Source of the DNA: a virus
Reading direction: 5' to 3' (one strand)
Virus record (IMG/VR): IMGVR_UViG_3300017714_000197
Coordinates: 1-22,323 of that record
Length of the DNA stretch: 22,323 nt
The position numbers and the translations under genes are program-made. The notes beneath the pieces are model-generated. The model saw only the letters and a program-made list of their open reading frames with translations, was not told the origin of the DNA and did not search any database. Shown one piece after another: positions 3,019 to 19,187 of the stretch. How positions within the stretch are numbered: the stretch's first letter is position 1; each line of letters starts with the position of its first letter.

Positions 3019-3273
3019 CTACGAGGGCAATAGCCCATCCAAATATAGCCACGGGTCCGAAACTTTTTTTGAGGCATTTTCCTCCATACGCTGGTAGGTG
3101 TCAACTCCAAGAGCATCACCTGCACCAAGTAGACCAACCGTTTCGATTTGTGTTGCAGAGTCAAGTGTGTGGTAAGTGTAAGGCTCACCGTTTTCATCAA
3201 CAGTGACGAATGGCTCTTTTACACTTTGCACGCTTGAACATCCAATGAGAAAAAGAATCGCCAAATATCTCAT
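3019..3273 (-). CDS. Small predicted lipoprotein, possible o-spanin
   Basis: 84 residues. The N-terminus MRYLAILFLIGCSS is a lipoprotein signal with a lipobox L-I-G-C; Cys12 would be lipidated. The remainder is polar, with no repeat or recognised domain. The start overlaps the stop of the upstream membrane protein gene by four bases (ATGA). A small membrane protein followed by a small lipoprotein, downstream of a holin-like gene, recalls an i-spanin/o-spanin pair, but there is no sequence match to known spanins. Confidence 0.7.
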   Translation of the reverse strand: MRYLAILFLIGCSSVQSVKEPFVTVDENGEPYTYHTLDSATQIETVGLLGAGDALGVDTYQRMEENASKKVSDPWLYLDGLLPS

Positions 3274-3509
3274 CGAGGAACTCTTTCCTTTGGTGTCTCC
3301 GTTCGCTGCATATGCTCACGAAGTTTTTTTCGCCTCTCTCTTTTTTCAAGTAGTACAGGCTTCCCGACTTCTTTCAATAATCTATCGTGGACACGATGTT
3401 CAACTTCTATAACTGCGTACTTGTATCCACCGGCAAAGCCAATCACTACACCCAAAATAAAGATACAAACTCTTTTCAAAATAATACATTCATGCTTACA
3501 ATCGCTCAT
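3270..3509 (-). CDS. Single-pass membrane protein, possible i-spanin
   Basis: 79 residues. One hydrophobic segment at about residues 14-31 (CIFILGVVIGFAGGYKYAV) is followed by a charged, helical, Arg/Lys/Glu-rich tail that might form a coiled coil. It is coupled by four-base overlaps to both neighbours, the SNase gene upstream and the lipoprotein gene downstream. The heavy positive charge of the tail fits a cytoplasmic tail as well as a periplasmic spanin arm, so the spanin idea is tentative. Confidence 0.65.
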   Translation of the reverse strand: MSDCKHECIILKRVCIFILGVVIGFAGGYKYAVIEVEHRVHDRLLKEVGKPVLLEKRERRKKLREHMQRTETPKERVPR

Positions 3510-3950: not shown

Positions 3951-4397
3951 TTACTTTCCTCTGACTGCGGTTCCGAAGTAGAATCCAACGATGGTAACGA
4001 GAATCTGCCTATTTTCTTCTGTGTATAGGTAACCCTCGACCGGGGTATAAGTTCTTACCTTTTCCTCACCGAACAAACCGAGCAAGTCCCATGGCTTGTA
4101 GACGGTTTGTTCATGCTCGACCACGGTGGTTACACCGTCGCTGAATGCAATAATAAACGGAGCGATGATAGTGCCAAACATAATACAAAGCACGATGAAT
4201 CGACGAACCAGTTTACCTGCGTCAATTGATACACGGCCTACGGCAGCATTCGCATGTTCGTTTTCTTTTTCGGCTGTACCCATCGCCATCTTCCATCGCT
4301 CTTGCTCTTGGGCACGACGTTCAGCCATTGCTTTGAATAGGAATCCTGTCGCCGATCCTGCCATCAGCGAAAGAAAATCAGGTGATAAAAAATCCAT
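3951..4397 (-). CDS. Holin-like membrane protein (3-TM type)
   Basis: 148 residues with three hydrophobic segments: about 8-24, 67-86 (FIVLCIMFGTIIAPFIIAF) and 131-146 (ILVTIVGFYFGTAVRG). A charged helical linker follows the first. The spacing and the closing V-G-F-Y-F-G-T-A-x-R motif resemble the three-TM holin family known from gene transfer agents and marine phages, which make inner-membrane lesions for lysis. The start has AGGAG nine bases upstream. No endolysin gene is visible in this window, so the lysis role rests on topology and motif only. Confidence 0.55.
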   Translation of the reverse strand: MDFLSPDFLSLMAGSATGFLFKAMAERRAQEQERWKMAMGTAEKENEHANAAVGRVSIDAGKLVRRFIVLCIMFGTIIAPFIIAFSDGVTTVVEHEQTVYKPWDLLGLFGEEKVRTYTPVEGYLYTEENRQILVTIVGFYFGTAVRGK

Positions 4398-6844: not shown

Positions 6845-9800
6845 CTATTTTGTTCTGCGATTGAAATAAGTAGAGGCCATATCGTTGAATTGTCCGGGTG
6901 TCATGGAACGATACATTAGCGTTCGTTCGGGTGTACCCTCTAGTTGACCTCGATGAGTCTCTTCTTCAGTTCTTTTCTTTTTCTTTGCCATGTTTGTAGC
7001 AGTTCCAAAGATGACATCTTTATAATTTTTACCATATCGACTTTTGAAATCTGCTGTCGCATCCTTTTTGAGATCCTCAGCGTACTTATCTCTCAGTTGC
7101 ATTTCTTTCTTTGTAAGAGTTGCCTCCGAGAGTTTTTCGGTTTTGATAAATGTCTTACCCGGATCAACAATGATTCCAAATTCTTTCATAAATGGTACGC
7201 CAACCAAAACTGGTGTACCTTTTTCTGACCGATCATCCAGAGTAAATCGACGGTTTGGATACTTTTTGCCCATAAATTCAATATCAAGTTCAATCATTGG
7301 ACGCTGTTCAACGTCATGTGCGATTGCACCTTGCAGCACAGTCAAGATATCGACAACTTTATTTGTGAATTTCTTGCCGCCATGGGTCCATGTCACCGTG
7401 TCCCCATCGATTTGATATTCATCTGCATGGATTGAGTTTACCACCATGTTTCCAGTGTCGAATTTACCGACCAAAGGTCCAATGCCCTCTACACTCATGG
7501 TTTCTCTTCTTCCGACTACGGTTGGTGAATACATCCAATTGTCCTTATCTAAGATGTGGTCGATAAAGTCTCCCACAATGTTCTGTTTTGTTGCCATCTC
7601 GATTCCCTCGGAACCGGGAGAGGAGTTTACCTCAATTATGTAAGGTTTCTTTGTTTTTGCAGAGACAGCAATATCAACACCGCAGTAATAGCAGCCAATT
7701 GTCTTTGCTGCTTTTAGTGCTAACTCTTCAATTTCTTTACTAATTGAAACTTTTTTGATCTTTGCACCCATTGAGAAGTTGCTTCTAAAGTCATTCTTGA
7801 CTTTTCCTCGATTCATCACACCAACAACCTCACCGTCAAGAACAATGATTCTCATATCACTCTTCATATCAATATATTCTTGAAGAATAATCTCTTCTGA
7901 TTCATCAATTTTCTGAATTGCATCAATAACAGACTTGAGAGATGGCTTACTATCAATAATAAAGACACCCTGACCCTTTGATCCTGTAAGTGTCTTCGCA
8001 ACAACAGGGAATTTCCCGCCAACTTGCTTATGAAGATCTTCGATCATTTCTGGATCAGTGACAAGTGCGGTTCGTGGGGTCGGCAGACCTACTTCCGTAA
8101 GCGTTACGGCAGTGCGATACTTGTCTGAACAGATTTCAATCGAATCTCTTGAGTTGATAACGAAGAATCCGTCTTTTTCGAAGGACGAAATCATGTCAAG
8201 GGTTCCACTCTGTGCAGATGCAGCACCACGGACAATCACAACGGTATCAAATCTATTTGCAATAAACTCTTTTCCGTCTTTGTTTACAACAGTTCGAGTT
8301 CCGTCTTCATTTTTGAAAGATCGTGCGAAAGGAACGAAGGCGACAAAGCAAGGAACGTTTCTTTTTTTACATTCCTCTTTGAGTCTTTTAGCGGTCTTCA
8401 TCAAATTGCTATCGTTCTCTTCGCTGTATCCAGAGAAAATCAAAACTTTGACTGGCTTGCTTGCCTTTCGTTCTTCGTTCATCTCTTTTGTTTTCTTTTT
8501 CATCTGTTCGATAAACTTACGATACACAGCAGCCTCCGCAGTTTTCTTCATCACCTTGGCTCGTTGCTCCATCGCAATCGCAGCCTGAATCTTGTGTGCG
8601 TGCGTTCGGTCAGACGACTTGATTTTACGAACCGATGCCTCAGCCGTTTCTACGTCCTTGAAACCAAGTCCGTGGATTGTGCCTTTTGGATCTTCATCGG
8701 TGTAGAGATCAGAATGAGTATCGGGGTCTTGGTTCTTGCGTGTTTTAGCAATGCGGTTTGCTTCCATAAACTCACGGAACATCGACATCGTGCGACCGAT
8801 TTCAGTTTGCTTGTCACCCGGCTTGCGACCCTTGATAATATTTTGAATGCCAGTCTTTTCAAGATTGCCATACAAGTCAGTCAGCACATCCCCATATCGT
8901 CCGAGTCTGTAATGTTGCAAACTAACATTCGTTTTGGGCTTCATCGTGAGCGGTGTTTCTTCGTCAATCAACTGCAAGACTTTTCGTAGTTCTTTATCAT
9001 TTCCCGAAGTGCTGTATTTTTTTGCTCCCGAAATCTCACCATATTCACCTTCTACAAAACGAACCCAGCCTTTTTCCATTGCCATAAAATCAACGAGGTT
9101 GTCAACATCTCGTATTCCCCGTTTGATTTCATTGAAGTGTCCATCTGCCGCCGATTCTGGGTCATTTCTGTTACTATACTTCTCCACCAAGCGTTCTTTG
9201 ATTTTCTTTTCAGTAAGACCAAAGAATCTTGGATCTTTCACAACCATCTGAATGTGATATGGAGTATGTCCCTGAATGATTCTTGTCTTTCCAGTTTTCG
9301 GATTCACCCAACCTTTGTAGCCCGGAATGTTGACTTCATCGAGTTCCACCTCTTCACGAACACCCATTGCCTTACGAAGATCATCAAAAAGTTTTCGTGC
9401 CTGTGCATCTGTTGCCTTCGACGGCACACCAGTCTTGAATGTTTCAAAATCTCCCTCTGTCGCAGCGGCTCTCATTTTTGACGCAGACATACCAGAAACA
9501 TCTTTTGCGTCTGGGTCGCGTCTACCGGCACTTACAACCTCAAATGAGTCGAGATCAAATGATTTATCTGGATCTGGGTGATTGACATAAGGACGAATCG
9601 TCTTATCGAATTCTTCTACACGATCACCACCGACAACAACAGTAATATTTTTGTAACCTTCGTCTGCCAAATATCCGATAGCATCAAATATTGTGCGGAT
9701 TGAAGGATTATACATAACATTGGCGTTCCTAAAGAACGTTTTCATATAATTTGTTTTAGTTTTTGAATCTAGAGGGTTCTTTCGTTTGTCTTTGCTGTGA

Positions 9801-9982
9801 CTCGCAAAGATAAAATTCGTAGAGCCTCTTTTTTTTGCCTCTTTCAGAACCTTGTTTACCAAAAGTTCATGACCGGAAGTGGGTGGGTTGAAGCGTCCAA
9901 AGGTAAGAACAGCACTTTTACCCTTCCGCTCTTCACGTAGTGATACATCATCATTCACGCCATCATTATAGAATGGTTCCAT
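6845..9982 (-). CDS. Four-part fusion: nucleotidyltransferase, phage helical region, RimK-like ATP-grasp ligase, RimB-like retropepsin
   Basis: 1045 residues; start fixed by GGAGG nine bases before ATG. Residues 23-190: cytidylyltransferase/NMNAT-like fold, with FNPPT35-S-G-H38 (HxGH type) and V-S-G-M-S-A-S-K-M-R171 matching the ISSTxxR motif. Residues 215-510: charged helical region including HAHKIQAAIAMEQRAK. Residues 512-815: RimK-type ATP-grasp, with VVAKTLTGSKGQGV, the LQEYIDMKSDMR stretch, GVDIAV and metal-binding E784-V-N786. Residues 824-948: RimB-like retropepsin (ATP-dependent Zn protease family), with GRRE, K-F-D842-T-G-N, S-I-H-A-D-E and PVLVGVPFMKEFGIIVD. The tail is basic (MAKKKKR). 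RimK adds glutamates to proteins and RimB removes or remodels such tails in bacteria. L15-R-E17-E18 is a possible prohead protease site, so the protein may be packaged and even processed (inference). Confidence 0.88.
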   Translation of the reverse strand: MEPFYNDGVNDDVSLREERKGKSAVLTFGRFNPPTSGHELLVNKVLKEAKKRGSTNFIFASHSKDKRKNPLDSKTKTNYMKTFFRNANVMYNPSIRTIFDAIGYLADEGYKNITVVVGGDRVEEFDKTIRPYVNHPDPDKSFDLDSFEVVSAGRRDPDAKDVSGMSASKMRAAATEGDFETFKTGVPSKATDAQARKLFDDLRKAMGVREEVELDEVNIPGYKGWVNPKTGKTRIIQGHTPYHIQMVVKDPRFFGLTEKKIKERLVEKYSNRNDPESAADGHFNEIKRGIRDVDNLVDFMAMEKGWVRFVEGEYGEISGAKKYSTSGNDKELRKVLQLIDEETPLTMKPKTNVSLQHYRLGRYGDVLTDLYGNLEKTGIQNIIKGRKPGDKQTEIGRTMSMFREFMEANRIAKTRKNQDPDTHSDLYTDEDPKGTIHGLGFKDVETAEASVRKIKSSDRTHAHKIQAAIAMEQRAKVMKKTAEAAVYRKFIEQMKKKTKEMNEERKASKPVKVLIFSGYSEENDSNLMKTAKRLKEECKKRNVPCFVAFVPFARSFKNEDGTRTVVNKDGKEFIANRFDTVVIVRGAASAQSGTLDMISSFEKDGFFVINSRDSIEICSDKYRTAVTLTEVGLPTPRTALVTDPEMIEDLHKQVGGKFPVVAKTLTGSKGQGVFIIDSKPSLKSVIDAIQKIDESEEIILQEYIDMKSDMRIIVLDGEVVGVMNRGKVKNDFRSNFSMGAKIKKVSISKEIEELALKAAKTIGCYYCGVDIAVSAKTKKPYIIEVNSSPGSEGIEMATKQNIVGDFIDHILDKDNWMYSPTVVGRRETMSVEGIGPLVGKFDTGNMVVNSIHADEYQIDGDTVTWTHGGKKFTNKVVDILTVLQGAIAHDVEQRPMIELDIEFMGKKYPNRRFTLDDRSEKGTPVLVGVPFMKEFGIIVDPGKTFIKTEKLSEATLTKKEMQLRDKYAEDLKKDATADFKSRYGKNYKDVIFGTATNMAKKKKRTEEETHRGQLEGTPERTLMYRSMTPGQFNDMASTYFNRRTK

Positions 9983-10228: not shown

Positions 10229-11428
10229 TTACTTTGTCCAGTCTTTTGATACGGTAAAGTTTGCTTTTGAGAATTCCATACGATCAACAAGTTTCACTGC
10301 TTTGCCCACATGGTCAATTGCAACAAAGCCTTCAGGGTCCGTGACCCTATATCCGTCATCAGTTTTTATAAATGACGGCATTGTATTTAGTGACTGAAGT
10401 TTCCGCAGCACGACTGTTTTTGCCTGTGCCAAGTAGTATTGTGCAGAAAATAAATCATTCATTCCTTTTGAGATCGAATCGATAAATCGGGTTACAGTAT
10501 TTCTTTCGGTTTCTAATTTTTTCTTTGCTGCATCGGTTTTGAGTTTTGCAATCCTCTGGTCAAACCGAGATGCAATAAACCCAGCCAACTCTTGGGCAGA
10601 GCCTCTGTCTTTTCCGACACGAACATTTGCATTTGTATAGATCTTTATCAAATCTTTCAGTGCCTTGTCTGATGTAATTTTATCAATCAGTCTTTTGTTT
10701 TTCGTTAGCACTCTTCGAACACCCGCCAAGTTTTTACGAATCTCTTCTGTTTCTTTTTTGGTAAATGTTGCACTACCGCTCACATCTTTATAATCAGCAT
10801 CATCAAAATACACATTCTTTGATTTTCGTAAGCCAGATACATCTGCACCAAAGTTTGCCTTGAGGTCTGCAATTGTTTTGCCCTCATAAGTCGTGTGAAA
10901 AATAATGCCCATCTTTGCCGCTGCGATTCGACTACCAAGTTTACTATCCACAGGAACCGCATACGTAATCGTGTTTGGTGTGAAAGAGTACATGGATTGA
11001 CCGTCAATCGTTTCGGTATTCACATCCTCCGAAGTAAACAACATATCACCCTGAATCACTCCAGTGATCCCAAGTTTTGAAAGATACTTCAATGCAACTT
11101 TTAGTTTTCCTGCAAGTCCCCCACCATGATTTGCGTCGATGTCTGCATCTGTATAATTGATCTTTGGTGTTTTATTGAAAAGAGACTTAGTGGCAACGAA
11201 AAATTTACCATTCTCTGGGTTGATCCCGGCAAAGACTGCTGGGGCCCCATCCCACTTGACAGTTACATTCATTTTTTTGTTTGAGTTACCTTGGAGCATA
11301 GTCACCAATGATTCAATAAAATTCATTGCCTCATTAGCCCCGGCAGAACCACGATTGAAAATCTCGTCCTCAAGATGTTCGAGGTGAAGATTTTTTTCTT
11401 CAACTAAAAAGTTGCTTAGAGTTTTCAT
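10229..11428 (-). CDS. KxDG-type covalent nucleotidyltransferase (RNA/DNA ligase-like), capsid-targeting-like N-terminus
   Basis: 399 residues. Ligase-superfamily motifs are in order: K58-W-D-G (motif I, adenylated lysine), GKFFVATKSLFNK at 74-86, GVIQGDMLF at 123-131 (motif III region), GIIFHTTYEG at 174-183 (motif IIIa region), E366-G-F-V (motif IV) and V-K379-L-V-D-R (motif V). A helical insert of about 165 residues separates motifs IIIa and IV. It resembles a protein family I recall from T4-like cyanophages (DUF6267). The N-terminus MKTLSNFLVEE has L8-V-E10 at the same position as I8-A-E10 of T4 internal proteins. It could seal RNA or DNA nicks, perhaps delivered with the genome; activity is inferred. 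Confidence 0.75.
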   Translation of the reverse strand: MKTLSNFLVEEKNLHLEHLEDEIFNRGSAGANEAMNFIESLVTMLQGNSNKKMNVTVKWDGAPAVFAGINPENGKFFVATKSLFNKTPKINYTDADIDANHGGGLAGKLKVALKYLSKLGITGVIQGDMLFTSEDVNTETIDGQSMYSFTPNTITYAVPVDSKLGSRIAAAKMGIIFHTTYEGKTIADLKANFGADVSGLRKSKNVYFDDADYKDVSGSATFTKKETEEIRKNLAGVRRVLTKNKRLIDKITSDKALKDLIKIYTNANVRVGKDRGSAQELAGFIASRFDQRIAKLKTDAAKKKLETERNTVTRFIDSISKGMNDLFSAQYYLAQAKTVVLRKLQSLNTMPSFIKTDDGYRVTDPEGFVAIDHVGKAVKLVDRMEFSKANFTVSKDWTK

Positions 11429-12550: not shown

Positions 12551-13232
12551 TTATAATGTCTCCAAAGTTTAGTGTAATAGATTCGGTGAGGGTTGGCAAT
12601 TTTGTTTTATCTAGTTTAGTATACAATTCATCGCCAAGTATCCTACCTGCTTCGATGTCACTAGGGAAATGAACCCCCAGAGCAATTCTAGATTCTGAAT
12701 TTTTATTTGCAATATGATTGAATCGTGAAGATTTTTCTGGATAGTAATTGGACATTACTCGTGCAATCAAATGACCGACTGCGGTATGGTTGCTTGGATA
12801 TCCCGGTGTATCAACTTCAATATGTGGTGTGAATTTGATACCATGATATTTTGCAATTTCTTTTGGTCGGGGTCGATTGTATGAATACTTCATGTTCAAT
12901 GTCACAACGTCGGTGTCTTGCTTGATGAGATCGACAAGATCAATAATCTCAGTTCTGGCTTCAACTTCCTTCAATTCAGTTTTGAACATTTTCAAATAGT
13001 CTTTATCAATTTCTTTATACGCAGCCAAAATCTCGTTACGAAGAATTACTGCGTCCACCACTTCCATGAGTTCCATTTTCAATTCCATAGAAGATGGTTT
13101 CTCTGGTTTCAAAAGTTCAATATCTTTATAGCCTTTGAAAATACTCACAGGTCTTCGCATAATCAACAATTGCACTTGCGAGGGTTTTGCCAGCAGTGGC
13201 TCATTGTTCATATAATTCTTGAAATCAATCAT
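12534..13232 (-). CDS. PAP2-superfamily phosphatase (acid phosphatase/haloperoxidase fold)
   Basis: 232 residues. The three catalytic motifs of the family are intact: K115-Y-S-Y-N-R120-P (KxxxxRP), Y-P146-S-N-H149-T (PSxH) and S181-R-x3-G-V-H188-F-P-S-D192 (SRxxxxxHxxxD). A charged helical region (45-110) precedes the domain. There is no signal peptide and no transmembrane helix, unlike bacterial class A acid phosphatases (secreted) and lipid phosphatases (membrane). Instead it opens MIDFKNYMNNE, the same kind of leader as its capsid-targeting-like neighbours, though the N-N-E site departs from the consensus. The substrate (phosphate monoester, lipid phosphate or nucleotide) cannot be told from sequence. 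The start is coupled to the upstream stop (ATGA). Confidence 0.85.
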   Translation of the reverse strand: MIDFKNYMNNEPLLAKPSQVQLLIMRRPVSIFKGYKDIELLKPEKPSSMELKMELMEVVDAVILRNEILAAYKEIDKDYLKMFKTELKEVEARTEIIDLVDLIKQDTDVVTLNMKYSYNRPRPKEIAKYHGIKFTPHIEVDTPGYPSNHTAVGHLIARVMSNYYPEKSSRFNHIANKNSESRIALGVHFPSDIEAGRILGDELYTKLDKTKLPTLTESITLNFGDIINERTY

Positions 13233-13918
13233 CGTAGAAATTCCTCAACAAGTTTCATATTCACCAGTACCCGAGTCCCCAGATCATGCCCTACAACGGG
13301 TGTCTCGCTCGTCAGAGAGGGAGTAACGCCTAAAGTGGCAAGGTAGTCTCCGAACATCCCCTGATCGTCAGAATCGATTCTACCGCCCTCAAACAGAGGA
13401 TAAAAGTTTCCAATCAGATCCACCATACGGTCCCCCAGATCGTCTGTATCGCTCCACACGAAAACATAGCCCTCCCCCCTCCAAGGGTCTTCCTGAAGGT
13501 CTAGGAAGCCTTCTGAGGCGAGTGGGAGCCAGTAGTCTCGCAGGTCCAGAAGAGCCGCCATTTCTCGGGACGGATCATGCGGAATATCGTGGTTGGGGTT
13601 TCGATTTGCGTCATCTTCATGTTTGCCTGATCTAAAAGTTTCTTTTGACATAATCGGAAGATACGAAACATTTACATTCTTTGGTTTATTATTTTTTACA
13701 TATTCGAGAAGACCAAACCAGCCAGCAGGTTCGTCACCCTGAAATGCAGAGGCGATCATCTTGTTCGGAAGATTTTTATTTTTGTTGAGCGGAACAAAAA
13801 AAGTATGACCATTTTTATCAACTCTTGCATGTGTCGTTTGCACAGCATCTTCAAAATCTTGAAGGTACTTTTCGACCGCATCAACTTCTTCGAAAAGATA
13901 AGATTTGAAATTCCGCAT
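13229..13918 (-). CDS. Unknown acidic protein with capsid-targeting-like N-terminus
   Basis: 229 residues, not recognised. I chose MRNFKSYLFEE because L8-F-E10-E aligns with the leaders of the neighbouring genes. The frame is open 60 bases further, but that extension lies inside the PEP-CTERM-like gene. No Shine-Dalgarno sequence precedes this ATG, and a CTAAATA box ends five bases before it, so translation may be leaderless or reinitiate after the upstream stop. Notable segments are AGWFGLLEYVKNN, a His/Asp/Pro-rich PNHDIPHDPSREMAALLDL, and an acidic middle (WSDTDDLGDRMVDLI). Confidence 0.65.
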   Translation of the reverse strand: MRNFKSYLFEEVDAVEKYLQDFEDAVQTTHARVDKNGHTFFVPLNKNKNLPNKMIASAFQGDEPAGWFGLLEYVKNNKPKNVNVSYLPIMSKETFRSGKHEDDANRNPNHDIPHDPSREMAALLDLRDYWLPLASEGFLDLQEDPWRGEGYVFVWSDTDDLGDRMVDLIGNFYPLFEGGRIDSDDQGMFGDYLATLGVTPSLTSETPVVGHDLGTRVLVNMKLVEEFLR

Positions 13919-13922
13919 ACTG

Positions 13923-13929
13923 TATTTAG
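13923..13929 (-). promoter_or_regulatory. CTAAATA box overlapping the PEP-CTERM-like gene's stop
   Basis: Reads ACTAAATAC on the minus strand. The TAA inside the box is the stop codon of the PEP-CTERM-like gene. A transcript from it would begin almost at the next ATG, so it is either a leaderless late promoter or chance. Confidence 0.3.
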
Positions 13930-14564
13930 TAGCGTCTTCTTCTACCACCCATGAGAATGCCCAAACCACCCAAGGCAACGGACGCAGGAGCAGGAACGGG
14001 AACCGTTTCTAAGTCCGGCATCAACGATTCAAATATCGTAGCAGTTCCATCACCTTGAAGAACTCCGGGGGACGTAGTATATTCGTCTGCCCAAGCGAGA
14101 ATCCAAACCGTTGCTGTCTCTCCGGGGGCTAAAGAACTCGTAGTTGTATCGTCCGAAAAGCCCCAGTCCCATGAGAACAGACCTGTCTCGTAACCAAAAT
14201 TTACATAGTCCGGGGCATTGTAAAAAGGATCTATTTGTTCTTGAATGGGTGTTTCTATAAAGTATCCCGGCATCACAAGAGAAGCGATTTCGGATGTGCT
14301 TTCCCCAACGTAGATGTCGAGGTCTTCGATGTTCAGCATTGACTCCCAACTGTTTTCAACAGTGATTGTCACCAGCATCGCACCTTCGGGAAGACCTACG
14401 ACATCTTGTTGTTCGGGTTCGGTATAAACTGCGGAGGAAACAGTGGCAGAGAAGAATCCATCTTCATCCTGCGACCAAACTTCGTACTCCATAAACGCTG
14501 TCGGATCACCGGCAATATCGCCAAATGCAGCCGTAGTAATAAGTAACGCTAATGGTCTAATCAT
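13926..14564 (-). CDS. Secreted protein with PEP-CTERM-like sorting tail
   Basis: 212 residues. It has a short signal peptide (MIRPLALLITTAAFG), a beta-rich acidic body (SAVYTEPE, LVTITVEN, DLDIYVGE, ETATVWILAW), and a C-terminus reading V-P-x-P191-A-P193, then ASVALGGLGILMGG, then RRRRY. This PAP/hydrophobic/poly-Arg layout is the variant of PEP-CTERM seen in many Phycisphaerae. In bacteria such tails are recognised by an exosortase; no exosortase is in the window, so the host enzyme would be needed. AAGGG precedes the ATG and a CTAAATA box lies 46 bases upstream. It is probably a surface-exposed late product of host origin. Confidence 0.78.
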   Translation of the reverse strand: MIRPLALLITTAAFGDIAGDPTAFMEYEVWSQDEDGFFSATVSSAVYTEPEQQDVVGLPEGAMLVTITVENSWESMLNIEDLDIYVGESTSEIASLVMPGYFIETPIQEQIDPFYNAPDYVNFGYETGLFSWDWGFSDDTTTSSLAPGETATVWILAWADEYTTSPGVLQGDGTATIFESLMPDLETVPVPAPASVALGGLGILMGGRRRRY

Positions 14565-14610
14565 ACAGAAACCCTTTTTGTAAAAGTTGTCCGAAGTATT
14601 CGAACAGATT

Positions 14611-14617
14611 TATTTAG
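14611..14617 (-). promoter_or_regulatory. Late-promoter-like box CTAAATA before the PEP-CTERM-like gene
   Basis: Reads CCTAAATAAA on the minus strand; its TAA is the stop codon of the 278-residue dockerin-like gene. The ATG of the PEP-CTERM-like gene is 46 bases away, with its own ribosome binding site. Confidence 0.5.
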
Positions 14618-15450
14618 GAATTTGAATTTCCCCAAGCCGCAAGAATTTTCAGAATTGCATCGAACACATCGTCATATCTTTCTGCGTCATTCAGAACCAT
14701 CAGTAAGTCTCCAAAATCAACTCTGTCGTCGTAGTTCAAGTCTTCCCAGATTGTGGACTGGGTAGCATCTCCGAAGTAACCGATGGTTTCGTAATAATTC
14801 CAGTGTGGCAAACCGTCATACTTGTTCAGGTTTACACCACCCTTGAATCTTACATTTCCCTTTGTGGTAAGTTGCATAAAAGGATTCTCACCGATCTTTG
14901 CATTTTGAGCATTTGAATTTACGACAACAATAAGTCTTGACAATGTAAAAATATCATTGTTTTCACCCAAGATCAGATTGTTGGTTTGGTTCAGTCGGTA
15001 TGGAGTTGCAACACCGGCACAGGGGTAGTTGTCACCAAGACCGGGAACACCGACACAATCGGGAAGTTCACCCATTGGAAAGTGTGAATCAAAATCCTGT
15101 CGTGGATCTTGTCCCAAGAAGTAGCGAAGCGGACCCGATGGTGTTTGCTCTGCGGTGGACCAAGTGTCTCCCCACGGAACATCGCTCGGGTGATTGTTCC
15201 AGAATCCTTCCTCGGAAGTTGTCACAAGAATAAACGGTGTTTGAGTTGCGATTCTCGCACCGAGTCCAGAGTAACCAGCATTCAGTGGCAAAATACAAGT
15301 CGGTGTTTCCGCATCAATAAAGAAACGATATGTGTTTCCGTATGGAGTCATACGACCCATATTTTGAATACGAAGTCCGGTGGTACAATCCTCACCCGGA
15401 TCATTGTCATCACCAAGAGCAATAGCAGCAGATAAAATCAAATCAATCAT
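14614..15450 (-). CDS. Secreted dockerin-like protein B
   Basis: 278 residues. A very short leader (MIDLILSAAIALG) ends before DDNDPGED. After it comes M-G-R-M-T-P-Y-G-N-T-Y, shared with the upstream paralogue. The C-terminus (about 236-274) has E-D-L-N-Y-D-D-R-V-D-F-G-D-L-L, a calcium-binding dockerin/EF-hand-like loop, then a second helix ending LKILAAWGN. That is the planctomycete-style dockerin layout, with the terminal cysteine missing. A cysteine-containing body suggests export to an oxidising compartment. GGGGA lies seven bases before ATG, and the start overlaps the end of the upstream paralogue by eight bases. Its binding partner (a cohesin) is not in the window. Confidence 0.75.
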   Translation of the reverse strand: MIDLILSAAIALGDDNDPGEDCTTGLRIQNMGRMTPYGNTYRFFIDAETPTCILPLNAGYSGLGARIATQTPFILVTTSEEGFWNNHPSDVPWGDTWSTAEQTPSGPLRYFLGQDPRQDFDSHFPMGELPDCVGVPGLGDNYPCAGVATPYRLNQTNNLILGENNDIFTLSRLIVVVNSNAQNAKIGENPFMQLTTKGNVRFKGGVNLNKYDGLPHWNYYETIGYFGDATQSTIWEDLNYDDRVDFGDLLMVLNDAERYDDVFDAILKILAAWGNSNS

Positions 15451-16537
15451 TACAATTTCCCCATTCAGATAAAACTTTCAATACGGCAGAGAAGCCGTTA
15501 TTTGTTTGTGGATGATACTTACTCGCAGCAACATCCCCTAAAACTTGCAACAAATCTTGAAATCCAACTGTGCCATCTTCGTTGAGATCAGATGGGCAAG
15601 AATTGTCAGCATAGTAGTCTACAAAGTATGGGGCACGGTCGCAAGGATAACCTTGATTACACGCAAAACGAATCACTCCACCACTTCCGAAGTAGTCAGG
15701 ACCAGTAAATCGTGCAATGTGATATGAACCGGGATGCTTTTCGCTCGACCAGTCTACATCAGTGCCACGCCACATAATCAAATCACCGTAATCATTCTGA
15801 CCGGGAGAAGAGCAACAGACTTGCCCAACAATGGTGTCAAGAGGTGTCCAGAACTTGATTACTCTATTGAGTGAATAGTGTGGTGTTATGAGATCGGCGT
15901 GTTGTTGCTGTACTTGTGGGTATTTGGGAGTACCGAACGCACCATACTTCTTACCGGGTTCTCCGTGAAGAATCCAAGAGTCACACCAGAAGTATTCTAG
16001 ATTCGTCAGATCAAATGTGTTCGGAATACCACCGGGTGCATCCCAATTGACTGGGGTATAGTTCTGTCCAAGATACATCCAGCGTTGGTAGGGATTGGAC
16101 TGAATGCAATCCCAATACGTGCCGGGAATGTCGCAGGACACAACCGTTCCATCGTCTTGCTCCCAAGTTTCAAACGTGGTGTATCCCTGCCAATATTCAA
16201 TACATTCGGGACAATTCTCAAGGAATGGGTAAGTGGCATCGTTGCGGTTCTTGAAAACATCCCCTTCAATATTCCACGCAAACGCACGAGTAGGAATCTC
16301 GCTTCCACGAGTAGACCCAATCATATACGGGGGACGGGAACTACCATCAGGCTGGGAGAACTCGGGGTCAAACCCTGTCTGAATGTAAACGTCGAACGTC
16401 CGACCAAACGGAGTGAGTCTACCAAGATCGTCAATCCACATTTCAACCGTGTCGGGATTGGTTGGTTTGCCGCCGTTATCACCAGCAAAACTAAAAGAAG
16501 AAAGTGCGAAAACTACAAGAGTACAAAAATGCTTCAT
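15443..16537 (-). CDS. Secreted dockerin-like protein A
   Basis: 364 residues. I take MKHFCTLVVFALSSFSFA as start and signal peptide because GGAGG is eight bases upstream; the earlier in-frame ATG overlaps that site. The body is rich in Trp, Tyr and Cys (about ten Cys), with L-G-R-L-T-P-F-G-R-T-F near residue 38, shared with the downstream paralogue. C314-P-S-D-L-N-E-D-G-T-V-G-F-Q-D-L-L is a dockerin type I-like calcium loop, and the protein ends L-K-V-L-S-E-W-G-N-C, as planctomycete dockerins do. It has a late-type box 19 bases upstream and is first in the dockerin/PEP-CTERM operon. It could be a virion surface or exported host-interaction protein; catalytic motifs are absent. Confidence 0.8.
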   Translation of the reverse strand: MKHFCTLVVFALSSFSFAGDNGGKPTNPDTVEMWIDDLGRLTPFGRTFDVYIQTGFDPEFSQPDGSSRPPYMIGSTRGSEIPTRAFAWNIEGDVFKNRNDATYPFLENCPECIEYWQGYTTFETWEQDDGTVVSCDIPGTYWDCIQSNPYQRWMYLGQNYTPVNWDAPGGIPNTFDLTNLEYFWCDSWILHGEPGKKYGAFGTPKYPQVQQQHADLITPHYSLNRVIKFWTPLDTIVGQVCCSSPGQNDYGDLIMWRGTDVDWSSEKHPGSYHIARFTGPDYFGSGGVIRFACNQGYPCDRAPYFVDYYADNSCPSDLNEDGTVGFQDLLQVLGDVAASKYHPQTNNGFSAVLKVLSEWGNCND

Positions 16538-16556
16538 TACAAAGACCTCCATAATT

Positions 16557-16563
16557 TATTTAG
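16557..16563 (-). promoter_or_regulatory. Late-promoter-like box CTAAATA before the dockerin operon
   Basis: Reads ACTAAATAAA on the minus strand, five bases after the U-tract of the Hsp20 terminator and 19 bases before the ATG of dockerin-like protein A. This is the clearest example, because the terminator isolates it from upstream transcription. Confidence 0.65.
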
Positions 16564-16630: not shown

Positions 16631-17026
16631 TTATTGAATTTGGATTTCCTTTGGTTTCTTTTCTTCAGGTACAATCTTGTGAACATTTACAGAAAGAATT
16701 CCGTCTTCACAATATGCTCCCGTGACGTTCCAATCCTCGGTGAGAGGAAGTCGCGTGCGGAACTTTCGGCGAGCGATTCCTCGATGCTCGAACATCTTCT
16801 CTTCCGTAGATTCACGATCAGAAGCAACTTCCAAAACCTTGTAATTCTGAGGGTGGGGGATAACAGTAATTGATAAATCATTTTTCTTATATCCTGCCAG
16901 TGCAAACTCAATGGTTGCGTTTTCTTCGTCGTGACGAATAATGTTGTATGACGGGAAATTCATATTCTTTTCTAATCCCCGTTCAATTTCAGTAATATGA
17001 TCCCAAAAATTTTCAATACTCAGCAT
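16631..17026 (-). CDS. Small heat-shock protein (Hsp20/IbpA-like)
   Basis: 131 residues, typical length for the family. It holds unfolded proteins in an ATP-independent way. Seen: FPSYNIIRHDEENATIEFAL opening the alpha-crystallin domain, then AGYKKNDLSITV, F-E-H-R-G-I-A-R-R-K-F-R-T-R-L-P-L, and GILSVNVHKIVPEEKKPKEIQI with the C-terminal I-x-I motif (I-Q-I). AAGGAG precedes the ATG. A CTAAATA box is 58 bases upstream and a strong terminator follows, so it may be its own transcript. Hsp20 genes are widespread in T4-like marine phages, presumably aiding capsid or tail folding. Confidence 0.92.
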   Translation of the reverse strand: MLSIENFWDHITEIERGLEKNMNFPSYNIIRHDEENATIEFALAGYKKNDLSITVIPHPQNYKVLEVASDRESTEEKMFEHRGIARRKFRTRLPLTEDWNVTGAYCEDGILSVNVHKIVPEEKKPKEIQIQ

Positions 17027-19081: not shown

Positions 19082-19108
19082 AATAATAAACTCCTTTTTG
19101 TTTATAAA

Positions 19109-19182
19109 CAGTCGCGGCAGGACTCGAACCTGCAATCTACGGATTAGAAGTCCGTTGCATTATCCAATTATGCTACGCGACC
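19109..19182 (-). tRNA. tRNA-Arg (anticodon UCU)
   Basis: 74 nt with a complete cloverleaf: acceptor GGTCGCG/CGCGACT (one G-U), D-stem GCAT/ATGC, anticodon stem ACGGA/TCCGT with loop CTTCTAA, and T-stem GCAGG/CCTGC with loop TTCGAGT; discriminator G. No CCA is encoded. It reads AGA, a codon likely rare in a GC-rich host but frequent in this phage. It sits inside the minus-strand small-gene array, so it is presumably cut from a polycistronic transcript. Confidence 0.95.
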
Positions 19183-19187
19183 AATTT

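Follow-up and report, generated by a model that had tools for sequence, protein, structure and literature searches.

A late cluster of three phage genes, here called A, B and C, probably encodes accessory proteins that are exported and sorted by Phycisphaerae envelope machinery and that act at the cell surface. The genes lie in a 22,323-base stretch (the window; IMG/VR virus record IMGVR_UViG_3300017714_000197), all on its minus strand (Table 1). On the best reading of the data they belong to a late module that is widespread among phages and moves horizontally, its exported proteins borrowing host sorting signals to act at the envelope. A preliminary description of the window had placed the three genes at 13926-16537 and reported exported proteins with dockerin-like ends closing in W-G-N for A and B and a PEP-CTERM-like end for C; the open reading frames were recovered at these coordinates on the minus strand, with both kinds of tail and with hydrophobic N-termini. 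The further claim that the three genes overlap holds for A and B, which share 8 bases, but not for B and C, which are separated by 49 bases.

Table 1. Features of the module and its surroundings (positions refer to the window unless a contig is named; bracketed positions include the stop codon).
Feature	Position	Strand	Remarks
Gene A	15446-16537 (15443..16537)	-	364 aa; export-type leader, Cys-rich conserved body, dockerin-like tail
Gene B	14617-15450 (14614..15450)	-	278 aa; paralogue of A
Gene C	13929-14564 (13926..14564)	-	212 aa; N-terminal hydrophobic leader, PEP-CTERM-like tail
Dockerin-like tail of A	15446..15607	-	about 54 residues
Dockerin-like tail of B	14617..14757	-	about 47 residues
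PEP-CTERM-like sorting tail of C	13929..14000	-	residues 189-212: P-x-P, hydrophobic stretch, RRRR
CTAAATA late-promoter-like box	16557..16563	-	20 bases ahead of A start
CTAAATA late-promoter-like box	14611..14617	-	47 bases ahead of C start
CTAAATA box	13923..13929	-	end of C; 5 bases ahead of start of next gene
Hsp20 gene	16631..17026	-	upstream neighbour of the A-B-C module
Gene after C	13232-13918	-	followed by PAP2-type phosphatase gene
tRNA-Arg(TCT)	19108-19183	-	about 83-87% identity to Phycisphaerae tRNA genes over 60-77 bases
CPxC family members	L227:2647-3132; L262:2703-3122; L319:2276-2695	- (L227)	podovirus-like and siphovirus-like contigs

The phage nature of the stretch was borne out, with a T4-like affiliation indicated by the gene at 10232-11428, which matches 464 phage records, predominantly from cyanomyoviruses; the top matches are Pelagibacter phage HTVC008M and Methylophilales phage Melnitz. 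Late-type genes downstream of A-B-C are also present in marine T4-like phages, and related contigs encode a gp23-like head protein, a DNA polymerase and a UvsX-like recombinase. The window has 8 copies of CTAAATA, a late-promoter motif published for a T4-like phage (PMC1524935), every one of them on its minus strand; 2.1 were expected, and 0 of 100 shuffles reached 8. The gene homologues and this motif together assign the window to a T4-like marine myovirus. As had been claimed, A and C share their boxes with clear phage genes, a further copy preceding the next gene. In related contigs the Hsp20 gene adjoins the module in either order, Hsp20-A-B-C or A-B-C-Hsp20.

A, which probably starts at 16537 behind a GGAGG within an open reading frame at 15443-16552 (minus strand), ends in ...CPSDLNEDGTVGFQDLLQVL...VLSEWGNCND, and B ends in ...WEDLNYDDRVDFGDLLMVL...ILAAWGNSNS. 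Both tails follow the same order: one calcium-type loop (DLNEDGTVGFQD in A) is followed by a hydrophobic helix, and a linker then leads to W-G-N. In the A family, 47 of 47 aligned proteins have D, N/D, D and D as loop ligands. Since proteins of the B family match the A profile at the N-terminal GRxTPxG region and again at the tail, B is regarded as a paralogue of A. When a pattern for the dockerin-like tail was run on 1633 viral ORFs, 19 proteins matched, every one of them from the A or B family. The tails resemble the type I or GC-type dockerins of Planctomycetota in their C-terminal DxNxDGxVxFxDLL loop, hydrophobic helix and terminal W-G, but A and B have a single calcium loop and no enzyme domain: a second DxDxDG loop was found in 0 of 47 A sequences, short of the two repeats of dockerin type I, and the dockerin models PF00404 and NF041540 match neither A, nor any A-family member, nor B. 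Cohesin (PF00963) was detected in 21 of 150 Phycisphaerae genomes and not in G003, the best candidate host genome, which, together with the absent second loop, weakens cohesin-dockerin docking as a mechanism. For the same two reasons the module is termed dockerin-like, true dockerin status not being established for either tail.

Upstream of the tail, the body of A is strongly conserved in the alignment and rich in Cys. It was not found in 84,980 species genomes (pattern scan) or in 248 Phycisphaerae (profile), and a cellular origin was rejected on these grounds. Neither A nor B showed homology in its body, by sequence or by fold, to anything known; for A there was no Pfam or NCBIfam domain, no weighty PDB sequence match and no fold match in PDB or BFVD, the predicted structure models (pLDDT 55 and 47) being too poor for fold identification. 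The N-termini of A, B and C are on a par in hydropathy with those of spanin-like and lipoprotein-like genes. Short leaders without positive charge occur in B and in many A homologues, and among complete A-family copies the leader varies in sequence and retains its hydrophobicity.

C ends in ...VPVPAPASVALGGLGILMGGRRRRY. The Pfam model PF07589 aligns to its residues 189-211 with 16.3 bits (E 0.011) against a cut-off of 20.7, and because C thus stays below the curated PF07589/TIGR02595 cut-off its tail is called PEP-CTERM-like. The same model matches 6 of 11 C-family members (lowest E 0.0031), and a protein from a Phycisphaerae MAG that is evidently of PEP-CTERM type likewise falls under the cut-off, at 19.2 bits. 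P-x-P, a hydrophobic segment and a terminal basic cluster are found in C and in the 11 homologues aligned with it, even where identity drops to 46% (one homologue ends in IPTPSVLSLMGVAILARSRKRYT). The body of C is devoid of Lys and Arg, of which the window proteome would predict 21.7 residues, and likewise of Cys, and both T (10.4%) and S (8.7%) are raised in residues 17-189. Behind a leader recognised from hydropathy alone, C therefore has the K/R-poor, Cys-poor and Thr/Ser-rich body that belongs to the PEP-CTERM signature of Haft et al. 2006 (PMC1569441). The likeness to the PEP-CTERM/exosortase (EpsH) system extends over the leader, P-x-P, hydrophobic stretch, basic end and body, and candidate hosts encode the exosortase; C differs in coming from the late region of a T4-like phage, in its score and in carrying P-A-P, as in Phycisphaerae, and not P-E-P. 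Between C and most of its homologues dN/dS was 0.09-0.24, and C is evidently kept under purifying selection. A pattern for PEP tails matched 12 of the 1633 viral ORFs, 11 in the C family and one in another phage protein. The latter (L035:1386-1814, plus strand; 143 aa) has a clear exosortase-type tail, IPTPGAFALLGFASLFTTRRRK, and lies near a GroES-like gene on an 86-kb T4-like contig, where the A-B-C module was not found.

A scan of the A tail against the 84,980 species genomes was led by marine Phycisphaerae MAGs, which matched over the full tail, most matches in Flavobacteriales being confined to its first half. A GH66 glycosidase and a PHA-depolymerase-like esterase are among the MAG proteins that have this tail at their very C-terminus. 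Each of the ten Phycisphaerae genomes to which the scan led contains 55-136 tail matches, against 0-8 in three other Phycisphaerae and 31-65, with weaker best scores, in three Flavobacteriales. With the A profile, tail matches were obtained in 20 of 248 Phycisphaerae, many covering the whole tail, and in 2 of 149 Bacteroidia, covering the first half only; the C profile matched 10 of 248 and 0 of 149, respectively. Phycisphaerae PEP tails take the form VPAPGALALLGL..RRRR, nearly that of the phage (for example IPAPGALALLGVGGLLGGRRRR vs VPAPGALALGGLSILTGGRRRR in the phage), and the C-terminal part of C is 40% identical to a Phycisphaerae PEP-CTERM protein over 63 columns (E 3.8e-6). The earlier view that the tails are of Phycisphaerae character is supported by the full-length matches and by this PEP-tail form. 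Even clear-cut examples from Phycisphaerae MAGs score under the library cut-offs.

The exosortase model PF09721 matches 147 of 150 Phycisphaerae genomes, G003 among them, and C is predicted to be processed by such an enzyme. From the tail matches and the presence of exosortase, a Phycisphaerae-like host is the best inference for the phage in the window. The planctomycete host proposed at the outset is thus a candidate favoured by the tails and by exosortase; no spacer, prophage or body-homology link was found, and weaker dockerin-like tails also occur in Flavobacteriales. With 19.9 kb of the window as query, the DNA matches listed included no spacer or prophage link to Phycisphaerae; all of them fell in the tRNA-Arg gene, which is not host-specific. 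Bacteroidetes were rejected as hosts, because the tails there mostly cover the first half and no PEP-CTERM match was found in the three Flavobacteriales genomes searched.

A, B and C had 0 matches in 50,697 phage records. A scan of IMG/VR for the dockerin-like tail gave 100 confirmed stretches, 80 of which were kept, and at least 63 dockerin-tailed ORFs from these 80 share the A body, with 59-99% identity. The contigs concerned include T4-like ones (in three arrangements), a podovirus-like one, with portal and head-tail adaptor families, and a siphovirus-like one, with terminase, portal, head and tape-measure families; in some relatives (L102 and L105), two A paralogues stand ahead of B and C. 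In a tree of A, the window copy clusters with podovirus-like copies (97/100) and apart from its backbone sister L276, which indicates that the A gene moves between phages. As the same dockerin-tailed protein recurs in dozens of otherwise unrelated phages, those that carry it seem to use host envelope-sorting machinery late in infection.

Exosortase-type tails recur beside A in two unrelated families, that of C and a CPxC family. Members of the latter are 140-170 aa long and combine a CPxC motif at the N-terminus with a hydrophobic segment; their ends are of the type VPEVGQLALLGSLPFLMNKRRR. In a count restricted to ORFs of at least 100 aa, an exosortase-type tail was present in 22 of the 164 lying no more than two genes from A vs 0 of 180 farther off (p 4e-8), a figure tempered by the tail pattern having been devised after some such tails were seen; in related T4-like loci the count was 2 of 938 ORFs. 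An exosortase-like tail near A on L299 was set aside as belonging to a relative of the holin-like gene. It is quite possible, and we propose it tentatively, that Phycisphaerae phages of myovirus, podovirus and siphovirus type share a mobile late two-part module, made up of an A-family protein and often an exosortase-tailed neighbour, which draws on the surface-sorting systems of the host for a common step of infection.

In the proposed mechanism, the N-terminal leaders would carry A and B through the inner membrane, their C-termini presenting the dockerin-like module that is found on dozens of secreted Phycisphaerae proteins, and the host exosortase would take C as a substrate through its PEP-CTERM-type tail, with cleavage or anchoring to follow. 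Made late, the three proteins would most likely end up at the host envelope or immediately beyond it and exert their effect on the cell surface during infection or lysis. Their likeliest job may be to mask or alter receptors and surface polymers; new phage particles could then get away without being trapped by debris or adsorbing again. Phage proteins exported to the host envelope are known from lambda (Lom and Bor) and T5 (Llp), which use lipobox or outer-membrane barrel signals, and T5 Llp masks the receptor and protects the progeny. A, B and C would resemble these proteins in their predicted location and would differ from them in using C-terminal sorting tags of the host, the A family moreover spanning several virion types.

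An explanation we consider rather unlikely is that A, B and C are components of the virion (decoration, fibre or receptor-binding proteins) whose tails hook the particle to host surface machinery. The late-promoter boxes would suit such proteins, as would the position of A(-B-C) directly 3' of the gp23-like major head protein gene in several T4-like relatives and that of A between structural-region genes in the podovirus-like G414. However, T4-like virions assemble in the cytoplasm, to which export-type leaders and the membrane-type tail of C are ill-suited, and one A family is present in three virion types that have no structural proteins in common. The preliminary description had offered two options, virion surface proteins or tools to alter the host surface; given cytoplasmic assembly and the exported look of A, B and C, the former is disfavoured and the latter, although unproven, is the better of the two. 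Its overall interpretation otherwise stood as to phage origin, late boxes, export-type leaders and Phycisphaerae tails.

It is also unlikely that the three are auxiliary metabolic or matrix genes, for example polysaccharide-active or exopolysaccharide-associated, that keep the infected cell or its matrix functioning. Secreted enzymes are among the host proteins that bear the same tail, PEP-CTERM proteins have been tied to exopolysaccharide (PMC1569441) and the C-terminal part of C has its Phycisphaerae counterpart, but the body of A is missing from the cellular genomes scanned, no A-family member has a Pfam or NCBIfam enzyme domain and the genes are placed late, not early. That the tails are convergent look-alikes (an EF-hand-like loop and a hydrophobic C-terminus) with no sorting role is very improbable: scores below the Pfam and NCBIfam cut-offs and the lack of a cohesin match in the best candidate host would agree with it, but the loop ligands are invariably kept, two phage families with exosortase tails recur beside A, C has the composition described above and the Phycisphaerae examples themselves fall under the same cut-offs.

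Few planctomycete phages have been described, one being the chronic phage of strain ZRK32 (PMC10945688), and neither INPHARED nor the open-access literature searched holds a precedent for PEP-CTERM or dockerin-like tails in planctomycete phages; within these two sources, the earlier statement that no phage with a PEP-CTERM-like tail is known still stands. If export and sorting of A, B and C by the host are correct, the module would allow phages that infect uncultured Phycisphaerae to be recognised from sequence, and phages would be able to borrow PEP-CTERM/exosortase and dockerin-like sorting, systems that are poorly understood in their bacterial owners. Furthermore, a phage protein acquired again and again by unrelated phages would offer a way to test what the sorting tags do.

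Several other genes of the window deserve mention. The gene after C scores 50 bits against an N-acetyl-ornithine deacetylase model, far under the cut-off of 400, and the 1045-aa product of 6848-9982 (minus strand) fuses a nucleotidyltransferase-like domain, a RimK-type ATP-grasp and a Zn_protease-type domain. The minus-strand genes at 3022-3509 and 3954-4397 comprise a spanin-like pair, made up of a membrane protein and a lipoprotein, together with a conserved 148-aa holin-like protein, for which the libraries hold no name. A porin-like outer-membrane barrel protein, with a leader and F as its last residue, is encoded at 1101-1871 on the plus strand, the strand without late boxes, between a ribonucleotide reductase fragment and a RuvC-like gene; to our knowledge a porin encoded by a phage is unusual, and this one has relatives in 22 IMG/VR loci.
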